Of a stretch of DNA of 64,000 nt, positions 7,618-35,025 are shown piece after piece (within the stretch, counting starts at the first letter, position 1; each line of letters begins with the position of its first letter). A program made the translations under genes and the position numbers. The notes beneath the pieces were generated by a model. The model saw only the letters and a program-made list of their open reading frames with translations, was not told the origin of the DNA and searched no databases. Origin of the DNA: Haloarcula marina (GTDB taxonomy: Archaea > Halobacteriota > Halobacteria > Halobacteriales > Haloarculaceae); contig NZ_CP100404.1 in the NCBI RefSeq assembly GCF_024218775.1, forward strand, positions 1,612,001 through 1,676,000. The letters run 5' to 3'.

Positions 7618-8055
7618 ATGCCGGACCTGCTGGAGACGTATCTTGAGAACCGATGGATGGTCCAACCGAACCACGCGAACCACCTCGGGACGACACACGG
7701 TGGGAACGTCCTGAAGTGGATGGACGAACTCGGCGCGATGTCCGCCATGCGCTTTGCGGGGGAGAGTTGCGTCACGGCCCGGATGGACCAGGTGAACTTC
7801 ACCCGACCGATTCCCGTGGGGGATAACGCCGTCGTCGAGGCGTACGTCTACGACACCGGGACCAGCAGCATCAAGGTCCGCCTGAAGGCCGCCCGGGAGA
7901 ACCCTCGCACCGGCGAGCGCGAACCCACGACCGAGTCGTACTCGGTTTACGTCGCCATCGACGAGGACGGCGACCCGCAACCGGTCCCCGACCTCACGGT
8001 GGATTCGGAGCGCGGTCGGGAGTTGCGCGCCGCCGCCTCCGACGGCGAGCGCTGA
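7618..8055 (+). CDS. Acyl-CoA thioesterase (hotdog fold)
   Basis: 145 residues with a single hotdog domain. The HGGNVLKWMDELGAMSAMRF segment near residue 22 is the usual active-site region (Asp at about residue 31) of YciA/BACH-type acyl-CoA hydrolases, which release CoA from fatty acyl-CoAs. VTARMDQVNFTRPI is also typical. The Asp/Glu-rich tail fits a cytosolic halophilic enzyme. The ATG at 7618 fits family length; an upstream in-frame start would add only seven residues. Confidence 0.85.
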   Translation: MPDLLETYLENRWMVQPNHANHLGTTHGGNVLKWMDELGAMSAMRFAGESCVTARMDQVNFTRPIPVGDNAVVEAYVYDTGTSSIKVRLKAARENPRTGEREPTTESYSVYVAIDEDGDPQPVPDLTVDSERGRELRAAASDGER

Positions 8056-8086
8056 CGTTTATCCCGGTCGCCGCCGAAGGCGACCC

Positions 8087-8542
8087 ATGACACTCGACGT
8101 GCCCGTTCCCGACCGCCCGCAACTGACGAGCGGCGTCGGGGCCGAGGCGTACGACGACGTGGACGTGCAGGGCGACGAGTACCGGCGGGACGAACTCGCG
8201 GACGCCCTCGACGACGGCGCGTGGGCCGACGCCTTCGAAGAATGGGCCCGGGACACACCGCTGACCGAATCCACGTGGGCCATCGTCACCGACCTCGACC
8301 TCGTCGCCGAGTTCGACTTCTTCTGGGACTCCTTCGCGGGCCGCGTCGGCTATCACGCGCCGGGCCTGCCCGAAGACTGGCGAGAGCGGGAAATCCACCC
8401 CGACATCGAATCCTGGGAGACCGTCTCCAGCATCAACGCGGGTCTGACCGAGTTCGGGCAGGTGGTGTGCGACGTGTTGGCCGACGAGTACCTGGACTGG
8501 GAGGCAGAAGAAGTCGACGCCGGGGACCTGCCGGACTTCTAA
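8087..8542 (+). CDS. Conserved haloarchaeal protein, function unknown
   Basis: 151 residues, strongly acidic and rich in Trp and Asp (for example AFEEWARDT and FFWDSFAGRVGYH). No catalytic or metal motif or membrane segment is seen, so it is probably a soluble cytosolic protein. It starts 32 nt after the thioesterase gene, possibly in the same operon, and its stop overlaps the convergent methyltransferase gene by four bases. I do not recognise the family. Confidence 0.7.
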   Translation: MTLDVPVPDRPQLTSGVGAEAYDDVDVQGDEYRRDELADALDDGAWADAFEEWARDTPLTESTWAIVTDLDLVAEFDFFWDSFAGRVGYHAPGLPEDWREREIHPDIESWETVSSINAGLTEFGQVVCDVLADEYLDWEAEEVDAGDLPDF

Positions 8543-24993: not shown

Positions 24994-26157
24994 ATGTCCA
25001 TGCAAGCTGTCGTATACAAAGGCCCGCACGAAGTCGCCGTCGAAGAGGTAGACGAACCGGAACTGCAACATCCGAACGACGTTCTCATCGACATCACGAC
25101 CAGTTGTATCTGTGGGTCCGACCTCCACATGTACGAGGGGCGGACGGCCGCCGAACCGGGTATCGTGTTCGGTCACGAGAACATGGGTATCGTCACGGAA
25201 GTCGGCGACGCCGTCACCTCGCTGGAGGTGGGCGACCGCGTCGTCGCGCCGTTCAACGTCGCCTGCGGGTTCTGTGAGAACTGCGAGGACGGGTACACAG
25301 GGTTCTGTACCAACGTCAACCCCGGATTCGCCGGTGGGGCCTACGGCTACGTCGCGATGGGGCCGTATAAGGGCGGACAGGCCGAGAAACTCCGCATCCC
25401 GTACGCCGACTTCAACGCGCTGAAACTCCCGGAGGGCGACGAGCACGAGGACGCGTTCGCGCTGCTCGCCGACATCTTCCCGACGGGGTGGCACGGCACG
25501 GAACTGGCGAACCTCGAACCCGGAGATTCCGTCGCTATCTACGGTGCCGGGCCGGTCGGCCTGATGGCCGCCTACAGCGCGAAAATCAAAGGCGCGGCCG
25601 AAATCTACTCCATCGACCGTGTGCCGAGCAGACTGGAACTCGCCGAGGAGCACTGCGACGCCACCGCCATCAACTTCGAGGAGGGCGACCCGGTCGAGCA
25701 GATCAAGAACGAACACGGCGGGGAAGTCGACAAGGGCGTCGACGCCGTCGGCTATCAGGCCATCGACCCCGAGAAGGAGGCTGACGACGCGTACGACCCG
25801 GCCCGCGAGAACCCGGCCGTCGTCCTCAACAACCTCATCCGGACGGTCAAACCGACCGGCCAACTCGGCATCCCAGGCCTCTACGTTCCGGAGGACCCCG
25901 GCGCGCCCGACGACATGGCCGCGCAGGGCCGACTCGGCATCGACTTCGGCCTCCTCTTCGAGAAGGGGCAGAAACTCGGCACCGGCCAGTGTAACGTGAA
26001 GTCCTACAACCGCGAACTCCGCGACCTCATCATCGAGGGCCGCGCCGACCCGAGTTGGGTCGTCTCCCACCGCGTGGGCCTCGACGAGGCCCCGGAGATG
26101 TACGAGAAGTTCGACGACCGCGAAGAGGGCGTCACGAAGGTCCTGCTGGAACCCTAA
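24994..26157 (+). CDS. Zinc-dependent alcohol/formaldehyde dehydrogenase (MDR)
   Basis: 387 residues, medium-chain dehydrogenase/reductase superfamily. The catalytic zinc site uses Cys40 in CGSDLHMYEGR and His61-Glu62 (GHEN). A structural zinc loop has four Cys (91, 94, 97, 105). The NAD(P) fold has GAGPVGLMAA near 175. The CGSDxHMxxGR form is that of glutathione-independent formaldehyde dehydrogenases, so oxidation of formaldehyde to formate is likely, though other alcohols are possible. The formate dehydrogenase operon converges on it from the right, consistent with C1 oxidation. Confidence 0.85.
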   Translation: MSMQAVVYKGPHEVAVEEVDEPELQHPNDVLIDITTSCICGSDLHMYEGRTAAEPGIVFGHENMGIVTEVGDAVTSLEVGDRVVAPFNVACGFCENCEDGYTGFCTNVNPGFAGGAYGYVAMGPYKGGQAEKLRIPYADFNALKLPEGDEHEDAFALLADIFPTGWHGTELANLEPGDSVAIYGAGPVGLMAAYSAKIKGAAEIYSIDRVPSRLELAEEHCDATAINFEEGDPVEQIKNEHGGEVDKGVDAVGYQAIDPEKEADDAYDPARENPAVVLNNLIRTVKPTGQLGIPGLYVPEDPGAPDDMAAQGRLGIDFGLLFEKGQKLGTGQCNVKSYNRELRDLIIEGRADPSWVVSHRVGLDEAPEMYEKFDDREEGVTKVLLEP

Positions 26158-27587: not shown

Positions 27588-29546
27588 TCACTCCTGCGTG
27601 GCAGGCGCCGACCGAAGGGGCCGAACGGCGACGTTCGGGTCCCCCCGACGTTCCAGCGGGTCAGCGATGGCGGCGTGCATCACCGCGGTCCCGCGCCGAA
27701 CGTCGTCGGTCGTCTCGGCGACGGCTTCGACCACCGTCTCGCCGTCGGTGACGGCGACTGTTTCGCCGGTCGCTACGTCGCGCGCCGCGGCGTCGTCGGG
27801 GTGTATCCGCACGCGGTCCCGTTCGCCGCGCGTCGCCGCGTCGTCGTTCGCTCGCCCGACCGAGACGAGACGCAGGCCGTCGTCGTCACCGGCGTCGACG
27901 GGCGGTTGGACGCCGACGAAGCGTGCGCGGCCGTCCGCCGTCTCGAAACCGTCCTCGTACAGGGTCGACCCGGCGTCCCCGGGCCACTGTCGGCTGGATT
28001 TCGTCTCGCCCACCGACAGTCCCGCGTAGGCCGGACTCACGTCCGCCAGTTCGTCGAACGCCTCGTCAGGCCCGTCGAAGTCGAACTGCGCCGGGGCCGT
28101 CAGCCGCGACCCCAGTTCCCGCAGTACCTCGAAGTCCGGTCGCGCGTCGCCCGGCGGGTCGCGGACGGGCCGGACCCGCTGGACCGTCCGGTCGAGGTTG
28201 GTGACGGTCCCGCGCTTCTCGACGCCAGTCGCGGCGGGCAACACCACGTCTGCGTACGGCGTCGTGGCCGTCTCGGCCGCGTCGACGAGGACGAGCGTAT
28301 CCAGTCCACCGAGGCGTCGGTCCAGCCACTCGTCCGGCCGCTTCGAGACGGCCGGGTTCTCGCCGACGACCAGCGCGGCCCGGACCGCGTCGCCGAACGC
28401 ACCGACGAGGGCTTTCGCGTCGAGTCCCGGTCGCTTTGGCGGGTCGACGCCCCAAACCGACCCGACTCGCTCGCGGGCGTCGGCATCGGTGACGGAGACG
28501 TGGCCCGGTAGTTTGTCCGGCACGCACCCCGCGTCCGTCGCGCCCTGTTCGTTGACCAGGCCGCGGAAGACGTACAGGCCCGTCCCGGGCCGCCCGACGT
28601 TGCCGGTCAGCAACAGCAGGTTCAGAAGCGCGTCGGGGGCAGACACCGGTGGCTGGCCGTCGATGCCGGTCCCGACGACGGCAGCGGTCCGGTCCCGCTC
28701 GCAGAGGAGTTCCGCGACCCGGTCGACGGCGGCGTCGTCGACCCCCGCGACGGCCGCCGCGTCCCCCCGTTCGAGCGCGGTCAGTTCCTCGCGGTACCGG
28801 TCGGCGTCGCGGGTTCGGTCCGCAACGAACGACTCGGCGACGCCGCCGCGCGCGTCGACTCGCGCGCTCAGGTGGTCCAGTAACAGCGCGTCCGTCCCGG
28901 GCCGAGGCGCGAGGTGGACGTCCGCGAGTCGCGTCGTCTCGTTGCCGACCGGGTCGAGGTGGACGAGCGTCGCGCCGTCTCGGACCGCGGGCCGGACGAA
29001 CGAGTCGAACGCCATCGGTTGACGCGCCGCCGGATTCGCGCCGACGACGAGAATCACGTCGGCCGAGCGCAGGCCGTCGAGGCCGTTCGTCGAAGCGGGC
29101 CACCCGAGACGGTCGGCCAATGCCCGCGCCGTCTGGTCGTGACACAGGCGGGCGCGGTTGTCGACGTTGTTGGTCCCGCAGAGTCGCGCGAGTTTCTGGA
29201 GGAGGTAGTTCTCCTCGTTCGTACAGCGGGGCGCGCCGAGGAAGGCCAGCGAGTCCGGACCCGTAGCGTCACGGGCGTCGGCGAGGCCCTCGGCGGCGGC
29301 GGCCATCGCCGTCTCCCACGAGACGGGCGTCAGTTCCCCGTCTCGACGAACGCGGGGGCGGCGCAGTCGCTCGGCCTCGGGCGGCCGCCCGAACGTCGTT
29401 GCACCTCGCCGACAGAGGCGGCCGTCCGGGTTCGCGGGCCCCTTCCGGCCACGCGCCCGGTCCGGGTCGGGTCCGCGAGTTAGCTGACAGCCGACGCCGC
29501 ACTCGGGGCAGGTGGTCGGCGGCGGGTCCGACTCGTCTCCGACCAT
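27588..29546 (-). CDS. Molybdopterin oxidoreductase, second formate dehydrogenase-like subunit
   Basis: 652 residues of the molybdopterin (DMSO reductase/FDH alpha) family. A [4Fe-4S] motif C13-x2-C16-x3-C20-x24-C45 is followed by RLCHDQTA, where Cys135-His136 occupy the molybdenum ligand and catalytic His positions of formate dehydrogenases. The C-terminal molydopterin-binding domain is present but the protein is about 110 residues shorter than its neighbour FdhF. It begins six nt after the DUF1641 gene. It may be a second formate dehydrogenase or a nitrate reductase-like enzyme. Confidence 0.8.
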   Translation of the reverse strand: MVGDESDPPPTTCPECGVGCQLTRGPDPDRARGRKGPANPDGRLCRRGATTFGRPPEAERLRRPRVRRDGELTPVSWETAMAAAAEGLADARDATGPDSLAFLGAPRCTNEENYLLQKLARLCGTNNVDNRARLCHDQTARALADRLGWPASTNGLDGLRSADVILVVGANPAARQPMAFDSFVRPAVRDGATLVHLDPVGNETTRLADVHLAPRPGTDALLLDHLSARVDARGGVAESFVADRTRDADRYREELTALERGDAAAVAGVDDAAVDRVAELLCERDRTAAVVGTGIDGQPPVSAPDALLNLLLLTGNVGRPGTGLYVFRGLVNEQGATDAGCVPDKLPGHVSVTDADARERVGSVWGVDPPKRPGLDAKALVGAFGDAVRAALVVGENPAVSKRPDEWLDRRLGGLDTLVLVDAAETATTPYADVVLPAATGVEKRGTVTNLDRTVQRVRPVRDPPGDARPDFEVLRELGSRLTAPAQFDFDGPDEAFDELADVSPAYAGLSVGETKSSRQWPGDAGSTLYEDGFETADGRARFVGVQPPVDAGDDDGLRLVSVGRANDDAATRGERDRVRIHPDDAAARDVATGETVAVTDGETVVEAVAETTDDVRRGTAVMHAAIADPLERRGDPNVAVRPLRSAPATQE

Positions 29547-29552
29547 CGCGGC

Positions 29553-30290
29553 TTACCGCTCCCGTACCCTGCGGCCCTGTGCTTTCAGGAGCGTCACGAG
29601 GTACCCGAGTCCGGCCCGGGCGTCGCGACTCCGGAGCGCGGAGACGGCACCGAGGAGTCCCATCGGCTCCGATTCGTGCTGTGCCTCGCCGAGCGCACCG
29701 AGTACCGTGTCGACGCCCGCCACCGTCTCCGCGTCGAGACGAAGCGCCGACAGCGCCCGGGCGTTGTCGATGAGCGGTTCGAGGTTCCCCTCGCGCTGGA
29801 GCGACAGGACCACGTCCAGCGCTTCGAACAGGTCAGTCCCGTCTTCCTCCAACAGCGTTCCGAGTTGGGCCAGTTGCTCGTCGGAGAGCGATTCGGAGAG
29901 GGTTGTCCCGATGTCGACCACGCGGTCGAGGTGCCCCTCCCGTTCCAGTTCCACGACGGCGTCGACCGCCGCGGAGAGTTCGTCGGCGTCGTCGCCGACC
30001 TGTGTCGCCAGCGCCGCGGCTCCCTCCGTCGTTAAGCCATCCGCCGCCTCCACGAGGTGTGCCGCCGATTGGGTCAGATTGGCGATTTCCTCCTCGTCGG
30101 CGGTGGCGGCGACGAGAATCGCCGTCGTCAACGCGTCGTCCAGTTCGTCGCTGGCCTCGACGGCCGCCGCGAGTTCCTCGCCGTGGGCCGCCAACGCGTC
30201 TTCGAGCGCCGTCTCGCCGTTCGTCGACGGTCGCTCTTTCCGCGCGCGATTCGTCGCTTCCTCGGGAACCGTTCGCTGTGGGTCCGCCAT
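29553..30290 (-). CDS. DUF1641 domain protein
   Basis: 245 residues, alpha-helical and acidic (for example ADEEEIANLTQSAAHLVEAAD). The family accompanies FdhF-type formate dehydrogenases in bacteria and archaea, so an accessory or complex-assembly role is inferred, not shown. It has no signal peptide or metal motif. It begins immediately after fdhF (stop at 30292, start at 30290) and is followed after six nt by the second molybdopterin enzyme. Confidence 0.8.
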   Translation of the reverse strand: MADPQRTVPEEATNRARKERPSTNGETALEDALAAHGEELAAAVEASDELDDALTTAILVAATADEEEIANLTQSAAHLVEAADGLTTEGAAALATQVGDDADELSAAVDAVVELEREGHLDRVVDIGTTLSESLSDEQLAQLGTLLEEDGTDLFEALDVVLSLQREGNLEPLIDNARALSALRLDAETVAGVDTVLGALGEAQHESEPMGLLGAVSALRSRDARAGLGYLVTLLKAQGRRVRER

Positions 30291-30291
30291 C

Positions 30292-32580
30292 TCAGTCGTC
30301 CCCCGCGGCCCGCGGTTGCTCGCGTTCGTCTTCGTCGGCCGTCTCGTGGTGGCCGTCGACGCGTTCGATGCTGACCGCCGAGACTTTGTACTCCGGGGTC
30401 GCCGCCGCCGGGTCCAAGTGGTCCTCGTCGGTGAGTCGGTTCACCGCGCTCTCGGCGAAGTGGATGGGCGCGAAGACGGTATCCGGGCCGACCCGGTCGG
30501 TGACTTGGGCCGGAACGACGATTTCGCCGCGCCGCGACCGGATTCGGACCTCGTCGCCGCTCTCGATGCCGTACTCCGCCGCGGTGTCGGGGTGAATCTC
30601 CACGAAGTCGCTGGGGGTGTACTGCATGATTCCCTCCTCGCGGTGGGTCATCGTCCCCGTGTGGTACTGATAGAGGACCCGGCCTGTCGTCAGGGTGAAC
30701 GGGTACTCGTCGTCGGGCGTCTCGGCGGGGGCGCTGAAGCCGATGCCCTGCAGGTGCGCGAGGCCGTCGTCGGTGTTGAACGCGTCCTCGTAGAGCCGTT
30801 TCGTTCCGGGGTGGTCCTCGTGGGGACACGGCCACTGGAGGCCACCCTCGCTGTCGACGCGTTCGTGGGTGACGCCCCCGTAGAGGGGCGTCAGCGCGTT
30901 CACCTCGTCCATTATCTCCGCGCTGGACGCGTAGTTCCAGTCACGCCCCATCCGGTTGGCGAGGTCCTGGAGAATCTCCCAGTCCGAGCGCGAGTCGCCC
31001 TTCGGCGGCATCACCTGCTTGACCATCTGGACGGTCCGGTCGGTGTTGGTGAACGTGCCCGTCTTCTCCACGAACGAACACGCGGGGAGGACCACGTCGG
31101 CGTACTCGGCCGTCTCGTTGTGGAACAGGTCCTGTACCACGAGGAAGTCGAGGTCGCGCAGAATCTCCTCGGCGTGGTTGACGCCGGGTTCGGAGAGCGC
31201 GGCGTTCTCGCCGATGATGTACATCCCGCGAACGTCGCCGCGGTGGGCGGCGAGGAACATCTGGGTGGTGTAGTGGCCGTACTCCGGCGAGATGTCGCAG
31301 TCCCACGCCTCCTCGAACTTCGCGCGAATCTCGTCGTCAGCGATGTCCTGATACCCCGGGAAATTGTCCGGAAGCGGCCCCATGTCGCCGCCCCCGCCCT
31401 GGACGTTGTTCTGACCGCGGAACGGCGAGACGCCGGTCCCCGGTTTCCCGAGGTTGCCGGTTATCGCCGCGAGGTTCGCCATCGCGATGACGTTCTCCGT
31501 GCCGTGGGAGTGTTCGGTCAGGCCGAGCGTCCATCCGAAGACGCAGGTGTCGGCGGCCCCGAGTGTCTCGGCGGCCGACGCGATCTCCTCGGGCGGGACG
31601 CCGGTGACCTCCTCGACGCGTTCGGGCGTGAACTCCTGCACGGACGCTTTCACGTCCTCGAACCCGCTCGTCCGTTCCGCGACGAACGCCTCGTCGTAGA
31701 GGTCGTTCTCGATGATGTACCGGGTGATGCCGTTAATCCAGACGGCGTCGTAGCCCGGTTGGACGCGGCTGTACTGGGTCGCGTACTCGGCGATTTGGAC
31801 CTCGCGCGGGTCGAAGACCAGCAGGTCCGCGCCGTCCCTGACGTTCTGCTTGATGCGGGTCGCCAGTACGGGATGGGCCTCCGTCGTGTTGGACCCGGTC
31901 AAGAGGTAGCAGTCGGTCTGTTCGATGTCCTCGGTGCTGACCGAGGCCGCCCCGTAGCCGTACGTCTGGGCGAGGCCAGCGACGGTAGAGGAGTGACAGA
32001 GACGGTTGCAGTTGTCGACGCTGTTCGTGCCGAGCACCTGTCGGGCGAACTTGCCCATCAGGTAGTTCTCTTCGTTGGTCGCCTTCGAGGAGGCGATGAG
32101 TGACAGGGCTTCCCCACCGTGTTCCTCCTTGATTGCGCCGAGTCCTTCGGCGACGCGGTTCAGCGCTTCGTCCCACGACGCGGTGCGGAAGGACCCGTCC
32201 TCGGCCCTGACGAGCGGTTTGGTCAGGCGGTCGTCGGAGTTGACGAACCCGTAGCTGAACTTCCCCTTCACGCAGGTGGAGATGCCGTTGACCGGGGCGT
32301 TCTCGTCGTCGGTGGGTCTGGCGGCGAGAATCTCCTCGCCATCCGAGTAGAGGTCGAATCGGCACCCGACGGCGCAGTACCCGCAGGTCGTGTCCGCGAC
32401 GGTCAGTTCGCTGAGACGTTTGTCGCCCACGGCGCTGGCAACCTCGAACAATTTTCCTTCCGGGAGCGTCTCGGCGGCGACCCCCTCCGCGACGTGTTCG
32501 ACATTCTGCAGTGCCTGTGCCCTCGCTCGCTCCATGAATCCGGCGACACCCGACTTCTCGCCCTCGCCGTCCGAACTCAC
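30292..32580 (-). CDS. fdhF: Formate dehydrogenase alpha subunit
   Basis: 762 residues. It catalyses formate to CO2 with molybdenum or tungsten bis-MGD. An N-terminal helical segment (about 1-55) precedes a [4Fe-4S] cluster formed by C66, C69, C73 and C103. RLCHSST carries Cys185-His186 as metal ligand and proton acceptor, so it is a Cys rather than selenocysteine enzyme. The GTG at 32580 overlaps the preceding TGA as GTGA, supporting coupling. Electrons should pass to the NuoG-like protein encoded upstream. Confidence 0.85.
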   Translation of the reverse strand: MSSDGEGEKSGVAGFMERARAQALQNVEHVAEGVAAETLPEGKLFEVASAVGDKRLSELTVADTTCGYCAVGCRFDLYSDGEEILAARPTDDENAPVNGISTCVKGKFSYGFVNSDDRLTKPLVRAEDGSFRTASWDEALNRVAEGLGAIKEEHGGEALSLIASSKATNEENYLMGKFARQVLGTNSVDNCNRLCHSSTVAGLAQTYGYGAASVSTEDIEQTDCYLLTGSNTTEAHPVLATRIKQNVRDGADLLVFDPREVQIAEYATQYSRVQPGYDAVWINGITRYIIENDLYDEAFVAERTSGFEDVKASVQEFTPERVEEVTGVPPEEIASAAETLGAADTCVFGWTLGLTEHSHGTENVIAMANLAAITGNLGKPGTGVSPFRGQNNVQGGGGDMGPLPDNFPGYQDIADDEIRAKFEEAWDCDISPEYGHYTTQMFLAAHRGDVRGMYIIGENAALSEPGVNHAEEILRDLDFLVVQDLFHNETAEYADVVLPACSFVEKTGTFTNTDRTVQMVKQVMPPKGDSRSDWEILQDLANRMGRDWNYASSAEIMDEVNALTPLYGGVTHERVDSEGGLQWPCPHEDHPGTKRLYEDAFNTDDGLAHLQGIGFSAPAETPDDEYPFTLTTGRVLYQYHTGTMTHREEGIMQYTPSDFVEIHPDTAAEYGIESGDEVRIRSRRGEIVVPAQVTDRVGPDTVFAPIHFAESAVNRLTDEDHLDPAAATPEYKVSAVSIERVDGHHETADEDEREQPRAAGDD

Positions 32581-33533
32581 GGCCACTCACCCCCGTCGGG
32601 GTCCTCGGGGACGCCGGGCGTCGCGTCGCCCCCGTCGCCCGTTTCGTTCTCGGTCGCCGCCTCCTCTTTCGCCCGTTGGGCGCGCTTCTTCGGCGTCATC
32701 GGCCCCTTCGAGCGACCGGTGTTCTCGTAGGCCTTCCCGATACTGTTCTTCTGGGTGAACCCCGGCAGGGGGATAGTCGTCGCGTCCTCGATGCCCTTCT
32801 CGACGAGCGACCCGGTCGGGCACACCGTCGCGCAGTGTCCGCAGGAGACACAGGTCGACGCCTCCATCGTCTCGGCGTCGCTCTGGAAGCCGATGCGAGT
32901 GTCCTGCCCGGACCCCTCCATCCGCAGGACGCCTTCCACCTGCACGTCGTTGCAGGCCTCGACACAGCGGTTGCAGAGGATGCATTTGTTGCGGTCTATC
33001 TGGATGAACGACGACGTGTCGTCCAGCGGTTCGTAGGCGTCCCGGTCGTCGAAGACGCCGTATCGCGGTTCCTCCACGTCCTCCTCGATGGCGGCGTCCT
33101 GCAGTTCACACCGGCCGTTCTTCCCGCAGGTCGTACAGCGGAGGTTGTGGTTCGACAGCACCAAATCGAGGTTCACGCTCCGAGCGGTGGCCGCGCCGTC
33201 CGCGTCGGTGCTGACCACGGCCCCGTCTTCGGCCGGGAAACTGCAGGCCGGGACGACGCCGTGGGCGTCCGTCTCGACCATGCAGGTCCGGCACTCGCTC
33301 CGCGGGCCGATGCCCTCGCGGCCGTAGTGGCAGAGGGCCGGAACAGAGTCGTCGGTGTCGACGGCCTCGACGGCGTCGATGAGCGTCGACCCCGCGGCGA
33401 CGGTCACTTCCGTTCCGTCGACGGTCACCGTCGCCCGGTCCGCGCTTCCAAGGGGCGGGTCCGTCGCCGTCCCCGGCGCGATGTCTTCTGTCAGCGGCGG
33501 TGCGTCCGTCGTGTCGTGGGATTCGGAACTCAT
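32577..33533 (-). CDS. NuoG-like iron-sulfur subunit (formate dehydrogenase electron chain)
   Basis: 318 residues, arranged as in the N-terminal half of complex I NuoG/FdhA. A 2Fe-2S domain (CHYGREG...ECRTC...PAC) is followed by a His-Cys 4Fe-4S motif (NHNLRCTTCGKNGRC) and an eight-Cys ferredoxin pair (CILCNRCVEAC, CVSCGHCATVC). The long acidic, basic-interspersed C-terminus is unusual. It would carry electrons between FdhF and the NuoF-like protein. It starts one nt after the NuoF-like stop. Confidence 0.85.
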   Translation of the reverse strand: MSSESHDTTDAPPLTEDIAPGTATDPPLGSADRATVTVDGTEVTVAAGSTLIDAVEAVDTDDSVPALCHYGREGIGPRSECRTCMVETDAHGVVPACSFPAEDGAVVSTDADGAATARSVNLDLVLSNHNLRCTTCGKNGRCELQDAAIEEDVEEPRYGVFDDRDAYEPLDDTSSFIQIDRNKCILCNRCVEACNDVQVEGVLRMEGSGQDTRIGFQSDAETMEASTCVSCGHCATVCPTGSLVEKGIEDATTIPLPGFTQKNSIGKAYENTGRSKGPMTPKKRAQRAKEEAATENETGDGGDATPGVPEDPDGGEWP

Positions 33534-33534
33534 G

Positions 33535-35025
33535 TCAGTGGGAAACCTCCAGCATGTCGGGGCAACTCCCGGCCGGACAGCGGCCCTCGGCGTGGGCCGC
33601 GAGTTCGGCGCCGAACGATTCCATCGCCGTCCGCGCGGGGCGTCCGGCGTCGACGCCGAACGCGCAGATGCTCGTCTCGGCCATCACGTCGGTCAGTTCG
33701 TCGACGGCGTCGGGGTCGTACGCCCCGTCGTAGATGTCGCGGAGCAGTTCCGCGAGTTGGGTCGTCCCCTCGCGGCAGGGCACACAGCGCCCGCAGTTGG
33801 CGTCGGCGGCGAACTGCGCGCGCTTCCCGACGAACGAGAGGAGACAGCGGTCGTCGGTGAGCAGTTCGACGCGGCCATCGGTCCCGAGGCCCGCCGCCGT
33901 GAGGGCCTCGGGCGTCGGCCGCACGTCCAGCGAGTCGGTGAGGCCGCCGAAGCGGCCGCCGACGCAGGCCGCTTTGAACTCGCCCGTGAGCGACACCGCG
34001 TCCAGCGCCGTCGACAGCGGCGCGTCCGCGGAGAGTTCGACGGTCGCCGAGGTATCCACGTCCCCGTCGACGGTGACGACGCGGGTCTCGGGCGGTTCGT
34101 CGCGGCGGAGGGTCACGGAGAGGTGGGCGAGGGTCCGCGGCGTGTGGACCAGGGTCGGGTGGCCGTCGAGGCCGACCGAGTCCGGACCGGGCGGCCGGAG
34201 TCGCGCTTCGAGGCGGTGGTTCCCCTCGATGGCTTCGAGCGCCATCGTCGGTTCGGCGGCCCGGTAGACGGCGGGGCCGGTGTGGACTTCGACGGCGGCG
34301 GCCGGGTCCGGGTAGCCGTCGGCGGCCGCCCGGACTCGCTCGGCCGCTCGCTCGTCGGCCTCGGAGAGATAGACGACCAGTCGCTCCGCGTCAACCGCGT
34401 CCGTCAGGGCCATCGCGCCGTCGAGGACTTCCATCGGCGCGCTGGCGAGGAGGAGCGAGTCCGTCGTCGACCCGTGGCCGTTCACCACGACGGCGGGTGC
34501 CTCGTCGACTTCGGCGGCCGTCTCCCAGGCCTCGACCAGCGGGCGGTCCCGACACCAGTCGCCCCACCCGCGACCGAGGAGAGTCGCGCCCGCGTCGAAC
34601 ACCGCATCCGCCTCTGCGTCGGCGAACCCACCGGCGTCGGCGTGGTCGCCCGCGCTCTCAGGCCGTCGCCAGCCACAGCCACCGAGAACGGGCCGGTCCG
34701 TATCGAGGCCGGGGAGGTCGACGGGCGGGAGTGACGTGGCCGCAGGGTCGTGGTCCGCGACGGCGTCCGGGTCGGCCGCCGTCACGTCCGCGTCGGCGAG
34801 GCAGGCCGACGCGATGTCCGCGATGCGGTCGTCGGAACACCGGGCGTAGAAACCGCTCCGGCCGTCGCGCGTGACCACGACGAGTGGTTCGAGTGCCGGT
34901 ACGCCAGTGGACCCGACGCGCGCGACGGTGCCGCCGACGCCCGCGTCGACCGTCACCGCCACGTCGTCGTGGTCCGACGCCGCGACCCGGACGACCGTGT
35001 CGCCCCGGTCTGTGAGAGATGTCAT
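33535..35025 (-). CDS. NuoF-like flavoprotein subunit, divergent
   Basis: 496 residues aligned by eye with complex I NuoF. The C-terminal 4Fe-4S region CGRCVPCREGT and SICAFG is intact. The usual FMN loop GRGGAGFPTG is replaced by GRGWGDWCRD, the NADEGEPG loop by NGHGSTTDS and the GEETAL motif by AAEPTMAL. Thus the N-terminal two thirds look like NuoF without normal flavin or NADH sites. First gene of the formate dehydrogenase operon. What it reduces is uncertain. Confidence 0.75.
   Translation of the reverse strand: MTSLTDRGDTVVRVAASDHDDVAVTVDAGVGGTVARVGSTGVPALEPLVVVTRDGRSGFYARCSDDRIADIASACLADADVTAADPDAVADHDPAATSLPPVDLPGLDTDRPVLGGCGWRRPESAGDHADAGGFADAEADAVFDAGATLLGRGWGDWCRDRPLVEAWETAAEVDEAPAVVVNGHGSTTDSLLLASAPMEVLDGAMALTDAVDAERLVVYLSEADERAAERVRAAADGYPDPAAAVEVHTGPAVYRAAEPTMALEAIEGNHRLEARLRPPGPDSVGLDGHPTLVHTPRTLAHLSVTLRRDEPPETRVVTVDGDVDTSATVELSADAPLSTALDAVSLTGEFKAACVGGRFGGLTDSLDVRPTPEALTAAGLGTDGRVELLTDDRCLLSFVGKRAQFAADANCGRCVPCREGTTQLAELLRDIYDGAYDPDAVDELTDVMAETSICAFGVDAGRPARTAMESFGAELAAHAEGRCPAGSCPDMLEVSH

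Follow-up and report, generated by a model that had tools for sequence, protein, structure and literature searches.

The haloarchaeal gene at 33535-35025 of the window (by which we mean the whole stretch of 64,000 nt that was analysed) encodes a NuoF-like subunit of a predicted formate dehydrogenase, and judged from the sequences it is close to certain that this subunit has lost its FMN and NADH functions and with them the coupling to NAD. As the best explanation, to which we give a probability of roughly 0.55, we propose that a de-flavinated descendant of a HydB/BfuB-type diaphorase has been kept on the Fe-S arm of the formate dehydrogenase as a structural or docking subunit, while the electrons leave the enzyme to an acceptor other than NAD.

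The operon and its neighbours

The host genome belongs to the class Halobacteria and comprises 3.74 Mb. The genes of the operon, from the NuoF-like gene to the CobW gene, follow each other nearly without gaps on the minus strand:

33535..35025, minus strand: NuoF/HydB (BfuB)-like subunit, de-flavinated, 496 aa and stop, encoded in the formate dehydrogenase operon (Pfam/NCBIfam, AlphaFold, Foldseek)
32577..33533, minus strand: NuoG-N/HoxU-like subunit, 318 aa, with 2Fe-2S, His-Cys3 4Fe-4S and 2x 4Fe-4S sites
30292..32586, minus strand: FdhA, predicted Mo/W-bisPGD formate dehydrogenase catalytic subunit (TIGR01591, 817 bits, cut-off 666; C197-H198, R390)
29553..30290, minus strand: DUF1641 protein, Pfam family of ForE (PF07849, 36.2 bits, cut-off 21)
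27588..29546, minus strand: another FdhA-like molybdopterin oxidoreductase, shorter (652 aa) and scoring below the cut-off of TIGR01591
26377..27534, minus strand: CobW-type GTPase, metallochaperone-like, a recurrent neighbour
24994..26157, plus strand: zinc alcohol/formaldehyde dehydrogenase beyond the CobW gene, a recurrent neighbour

The formaldehyde dehydrogenase and CobW genes recur beside these operons, also in Haloarcula marismortui, where the counterpart of the zinc dehydrogenase is annotated as glutathione-independent formaldehyde dehydrogenase. Based on this recurrence, formate from the breakdown of C1 compounds or methyl groups is the likely substrate. The second FdhA-like protein, encoded in most operons of the type found in the window, has Cys-His and FRG motifs and one 4Fe-4S cluster, and is devoid of a NuoG-type arm. 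The genome has another copy of this operon, with NuoF, HoxU, FdhA and DUF1641 genes, on a second replicon (locus L033:2058-7518; genome G000, contig C2); its NuoF is about 60-61% identical to the window copy, and the operon is near-identical to a plasmid copy of Haloarcula marina. In our literature searches, no study of a haloarchaeal formate dehydrogenase of this kind was found.

Loss of the FMN and NADH residues

The sites of the window NuoF-like protein which are relevant for its function are the following:

34534..34575, minus strand: former FMN loop, residues 151-164 (GRGWGDWCRDRPLV), with a four-residue insertion and with bulky W/R and D for loop glycines
34456..34482, minus strand: former NADE(x)EPG loop, now NGHGSTTDS, residues 182-190
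34237..34260, minus strand: former GEETAL motif, now AAEPTMAL, residues 256-263
34132..34146, minus strand: HTPRT in place of NNVET, residues 294-298 (H294 nearly and R297 fully invariant in the variants)
33844..33846, minus strand: C394, first ligand of the Cys3His (zinc or "B2") site
33775..33795, minus strand: CGRCVPC (C411, C414, C417), ligands of the B1/N3-type 4Fe-4S cluster, present here
33664..33666, minus strand: C454, fourth ligand of the B1/N3-type cluster
33562..33594, minus strand: H478, C483 and C488, completing the Cys3His site known from bifurcating HydB (PMC9499530, PMC9304861)

The initial annotation had read GRGWGDWCRD (residues 151-160), NGHGSTTDS and AAEPTMAL as replacements of the FMN loop, the NADEGEPG loop and the GEETAL motif, and all three were found in their places. 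Accordingly, the features of NuoF were recovered in part only: the FMN loop GRGGAGFPTG, NADExEPG, GEETAL and NNVET are all missing from the window protein, while the N3 4Fe-4S motif CxxCxxC...C is there (C411/C414/C417/C454). The cysteines of an N-terminal thioredoxin-like 2Fe-2S domain and a C-terminal ferredoxin domain are also absent. PF10589 was matched with 70.5 bits and the FMN domain PF01512 weakly, with 44.6 bits (cut-off 31.2); the NCBIfam NuoF model gave 84.5 bits, far below its cut-off of 558.65. The AlphaFold (AF2) model is confident (pLDDT 90.9, pTM 0.92), and its Foldseek matches are NfnB, HydB and FdsB.

A homologue exists in 113 of 292 Halobacteria genomes. The homologues fall into two groups: the first comprises most of them, the second a minority at about 24-33% identity, whose examined members are encoded in NiFe-hydrogenase operons and have the canonical motifs GRGGGGFPTG, N(A/C)DEGDPG, GEET and NNVET; such haloarchaeal HydBs thus keep the FMN and NADH motifs. 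Our alignment, which also drew on 80 named loci of GTDB genomes, comprised 104 distinct variant sequences, E. coli NuoF and canonical relatives. Since the same replacements were found in the paralogue on contig C2 of the same genome and in 102 further haloarchaeal homologues, the loss of the motifs is more than a chance event in one protein. The FMN loop, 10 residues long in canonical proteins, has grown to 14 in the variants (to 13 in one of them); G64 of E. coli NuoF is replaced by R, W or F and G66 by D without exception (104/104). The NADH-contacting K72 is also replaced, with no Lys among the common residues at this position, E183 (the second Glu of GEET) is kept in three of the 104 sequences, and NN has become H(T/S) in nearly all of them (N217 to H in 103/104). 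When seven canonical ligand positions were scored, the variants kept none (n=57), one (n=46) or two (n=1), and the canonical relatives six to seven. In FdsB, NADH is contacted by F152, K157, E258, E259 and K276 (PMC7171172), which correspond to F67, K72, E182, E183 and K200 of E. coli NuoF; the window protein keeps only the E182 position, and this first Glu is also the only one of the five that is commonly kept in the variants.

We considered the possibility that the FMN and NADH ligands are conserved at shifted positions, and rejected it: no displaced canonical motif emerged from the alignment with E. coli NuoF and the haloarchaeal HydBs, and the confident AlphaFold model has the same fold. 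NAD reduction via a separate NuoE/FdsG-type protein was rejected as well, since PF01257 has no match in the whole genome of the host. The earlier proposal that the operon does not simply reduce NAD is thus borne out by the loop rebuilt in all 104 variants, by four lost NADH-contact positions out of five, and by the genome devoid of a NuoE/FdsG-type protein. Outside the Halobacteria, three homologues were inspected, and all were canonical.

Descent from bifurcating HydB/BfuB proteins

Among PDB sequences, the top matches of the NuoF-like protein are HydB and NfnB of bifurcating enzymes. The Cys3His site of A. mobile HydB (C438, H525, C531, C536) corresponds to C394, H478, C483 and C488, of which the first three are present in 104/104 variants and the last in 102/104, while E. 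coli NuoF is devoid of this site. The preserved Cys3His site marks the subunit as a descendant of HydB/BfuB and not of NuoF or FdsB, so that the designation NuoF-like in the initial annotation needs refinement with regard to the ancestry. From the set of features of bifurcating BfuB/HydB proteins, the Cys3His (B2/Zn) site with its hallmark histidine was detected, and the FMN site, the C-terminal 2x 4Fe-4S domain, the N-terminal 2Fe-2S cluster and a BfuC partner were not. The thioredoxin-like N-terminal domain of FdsB has no cluster either (PMC7171172), and therefore this particular loss is not special.

The nature of the Cys3His site is disputed: a penta-coordinate 2Fe-2S cluster was placed there in the model of A. 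mobile HydABCSL (PMC8880783, PMC9304861), and a zinc ion in that of T. maritima HydABC (PMC9499530). At the position of the proposed fifth ligand, all variants have a tyrosine (Tyr432), which would fit a four-ligand site better.

The remaining 4Fe-4S cluster is optional

In 33 of the 104 variants the ligands of the B1/N3 4Fe-4S cluster are lost, 28 of them having Ser or Gly for two cysteines and five having Gly for one. Thus, the statement that the C-terminal 4Fe-4S region is intact applies to the window protein, but not to the family, in which this cluster is optional. The 28 sequences form one supported clade including Haloferax and Haloarcula species, and at least four changes were counted for N3 loss on a quick maximum-likelihood tree. 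All operons in which the loss was seen are devoid of DUF1641, while every scored locus with DUF1641 has kept N3. The Cys3His site persists in all members without N3, one gapped residue aside. Further, the Fe-S ligands are invariant in the HoxU-like part (100/100 loci, including 31 without N3) and in FdhA (69/69). As a third of the family can do without the 4Fe-4S ligands, we favour the structural role, which was one of the options originally suggested; ferredoxin as the acceptor, also named there, is considered below as a less probable alternative.

The structural reading has two caveats. In window-type operons N3 may still carry electrons, as it is kept in all scored loci with DUF1641. In addition, pocket residues retained in the variants (GRG; N90 in 99, Y/F178 in 100 and E182 in 87 of 104) may leave room for another ligand.

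FdhA and the missing FdhD

The best PDB match of FdhA is B. subtilis YjgC (ForC1), but FdhA carries the Cys-His motif known from FdsA and not the Cys-Gln of ForC. CH was found in 92/92 and RGQ in 83/92 FdhA sequences; the active-site residues C197-H198 and R390 and the Fe4S4 cysteines are present in 69/69 loci, in line with the assignment to TIGR01591. FdhD is regarded as crucial for formate dehydrogenase activity. However, this sulfurtransferase (FdhD/NarQ, PF02634) was found neither in the host genome nor in the 292 Halobacteria genomes, many of which encode FdhA with an intact active site; the same search detected it in archaea such as Methanosarcina and Sulfolobus. Either another sulfurtransferase serves these enzymes or the enzymes differ, and for this reason formate dehydrogenase activity is here a prediction.

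Operon types and the electron acceptor

Two types of operons were distinguished. In the window type, the HoxU and FdhA genes are split and are accompanied by DUF1641 and usually by a second FdhA gene; in the other type, HoxU is fused to FdhA and DUF1641 is missing. DUF1641 is present in 31 of 39 split loci, which define the window type, and missing from eight; these counts refer to loci of at least 12 kb, as many 4.4-kb loci end before the genes in question and inflate the number of changes on the tree.

In B. subtilis, the DUF1641 protein ForE mediates menaquinone reduction (PMC8808070). Haloarchaea have no NuoEFG, use menaquinone in respiration and ferredoxin for the oxidation of 2-oxoacids (PMC8305020). 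By analogy, the acceptor in window-type operons is probably menaquinone, reached via the ForE-like DUF1641 protein, a likeness based on a Pfam domain of 39 residues. A phmmer search of the DUF1641 protein against PDB gave no meaningful match, ForE included, and its structure model is poor (pLDDT 58.8).

We rejected the assumption that DUF1641 is a partner of formate dehydrogenases only, because no FdhA was seen near DUF1641 in ten further haloarchaeal loci, and in most of them DUF1641 adjoins a sulfide:quinone-reductase-like gene (five of these proteins were checked by HMM, one of them also against PDB). These neighbours suggest that DUF1641 serves quinone-linked enzymes more generally. In these loci (L156-L165, around 7700-8300) DUF1641 mostly follows a gene similar to type III sulfide:quinone reductase, often together with small TusA-like ORFs.

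The system is best read as a formate dehydrogenase arm whose end has been capped. Formate, probably originating from formaldehyde oxidation by the neighbouring dehydrogenase, would be oxidised at the Mo/W site of FdhA, and the electrons would pass the clusters of FdhA and of the HoxU-like subunit and exit there to a one-electron or quinone acceptor instead of NAD. In window-type operons this would most likely be menaquinone, with the DUF1641 protein acting like B. subtilis ForE. The NuoF-like subunit would cap the end of the chain, hold the complex together or position the acceptor.

Operons without DUF1641 need another acceptor, perhaps ferredoxin. No conserved extra partner was found in them, save an acidic ORF of about 110 aa (DIGKPIFTAE... 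near its start) after FdhA in some split loci (L082:12091-12456, L090:11873-12208, L091:11914-12246, L094:11799-12143); two of these ORFs were compared with Pfam and gave no match.

An unlikely, but the most serious, alternative is that the enzymes are generally linked to ferredoxin. Electrons would then pass directly from N3, or from the 2Fe-2S cluster in the HoxU-like subunit, to a plant-type ferredoxin of the haloarchaeal kind, docked where FMN and NADH or the C-terminal ferredoxin domain of HydB once sat. The ancestral BfuB proteins interact with ferredoxin (PMC9304861), haloarchaeal 2-oxoacid oxidation runs on it (PMC8305020), the genome has four Fer2 ferredoxin-type matches, and viologens reach the B6 4Fe-4S cluster of an NAD-linked formate dehydrogenase without FMN (PMC13335904). 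However, the ferredoxin-like domain (B3/B4) is absent, N3 is lost in 33 relatives, a ferredoxin gene was not seen in any examined operon, and the re-oxidation of ferredoxin in haloarchaea is itself unsettled.

Fate of the former FMN pocket

D156, E264, R297 and R315 are invariant in the variants, E273 and H294 are present in 103/104, and all six are absent from the canonical relatives. It is tempting to speculate that the rebuilt pocket (D156/E264/E273/H294/R297) is a site for an acceptor or regulator new to NuoF homologues, for example a quinone head group or the surface of a ferredoxin, but this idea is tentative and its probability low. If true, a diaphorase fold would have been turned from flavin and NAD chemistry to flavin-free electron exit with a replaceable 4Fe-4S cluster. 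Similarly doubtful is the suggestion that the pocket still binds FMN in a non-canonical manner, or another nucleotide or an anion held by D156/H294/R297/E264/E273. It would account for the new residues and for the retained GRG, N182, Y254 and T260; the exchanges of Gly for Trp/Arg and for Asp in the FMN loop and the loss of NN, Lys and the second Glu disfavour it, as does the shortened loop after the old NADE motif in window-type members.

That the subunit is a useless ex-diaphorase on its way out is very improbable. The losses were stepwise (FMN, then N3 in several lineages), and dN/dS of its gene exceeds that of the HoxU/FdhA gene by a factor of about two to three. Orphan and truncated copies exist as well: two variants, L047:3063-4499 (strongly diverged) and L081:6902-8455, have no HoxU or FdhA detected nearby and are possibly relics or in independent use, and in Natronorubrum thiooxidans (L133:6881-7315) a truncated ORF of 144 aa lies upstream of an intact fused HoxU-FdhA gene, possibly a natural test of the need for the subunit or a sequencing frameshift. 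However, dN/dS amounts to 0.09-0.40 in 19 close pairs, pairs without N3 included, which is far below 1. New invariant residues across 104 sequences, the preserved Cys3His site and a HoxU gene adjoining in 89 of 93 loci also speak against decay. Finally, NAD linkage via another flavoprotein recruited in trans is a general possibility with hardly any credibility, as no support for it was found, the examined operons revealed no conserved flavoprotein gene and the genome has no NuoE-type partner.

Why the subunit is of interest

RefSeq labels these proteins only as "NADH-ubiquinone oxidoreductase-F iron-sulfur binding region domain-containing protein", which would suggest NAD-linked formate oxidation in many haloarchaea. 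The sequences say otherwise, and therefore a different acceptor is needed in models of formate and C1 metabolism in haloarchaea. Further, the family presents, on a single fold, a natural series of cofactor losses: FMN, NADH and then the 4Fe-4S cluster disappeared, and Cys3His alone was left. The stripped subunit may thus be a ready-made test of the disputed metal site: in a homologue from Haloferax or Haloarcula, Cys3His should be the sole metal site, making the question of zinc versus 2Fe-2S testable.

Comparison with known systems

Like FdsABGD of Rhodobacter capsulatus and Cupriavidus necator, the system combines FdhA, a NuoG-type Fe-S arm and a NuoF-like subunit of about 500 aa, which shares with FdsB the thioredoxin-like N-terminal domain without a 2Fe-2S cluster of its own. 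However, FdsB has FdsG as its partner and binds both FMN and NADH, while the haloarchaeal subunit is devoid of the corresponding residues, is encoded in a genome without PF01257 and has the Cys3His site, which is absent from non-bifurcating homologues.

The best matches in sequence and fold are HydB/BfuB proteins (NiFe-HydABCSL of A. mobile, HydABC of T. maritima, NfnB), with which the subunit shares the Cys3His zinc/B2 site and, in most members, the B1 ligands. In contrast to them, it lacks the FMN and NADH motifs, the C-terminal B3/B4 ferredoxin domain, the N-terminal B5 cysteines and BfuC. HydB of the haloarchaeal NiFe-hydrogenases (e.g. L048-L052, Halorhabdus-type NiFe-Bfu) comes from the same class of organisms and is a homologous subunit located beside a NuoG/HoxU-like one, but nothing of the FMN and NADH motifs, the B1 ligands or the C-terminal 2x 4Fe-4S domain has been lost from it.

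Finally, the menaquinone-linked ForCE of Bacillus subtilis resembles the window operon in the best PDB match of FdhA (YjgC), in the DUF1641 gene and in having no NAD-binding subunit. ForC, however, consists of a single fused chain, has CQ/RGH in its active site and lacks a NuoF-like partner, whereas the window operon has split chains, CH/RGQ and the extra de-flavinated subunit. By its defining features, the system is not a member of NuoF, FdsB, BfuB or ForCE, although it has parts from all of them.
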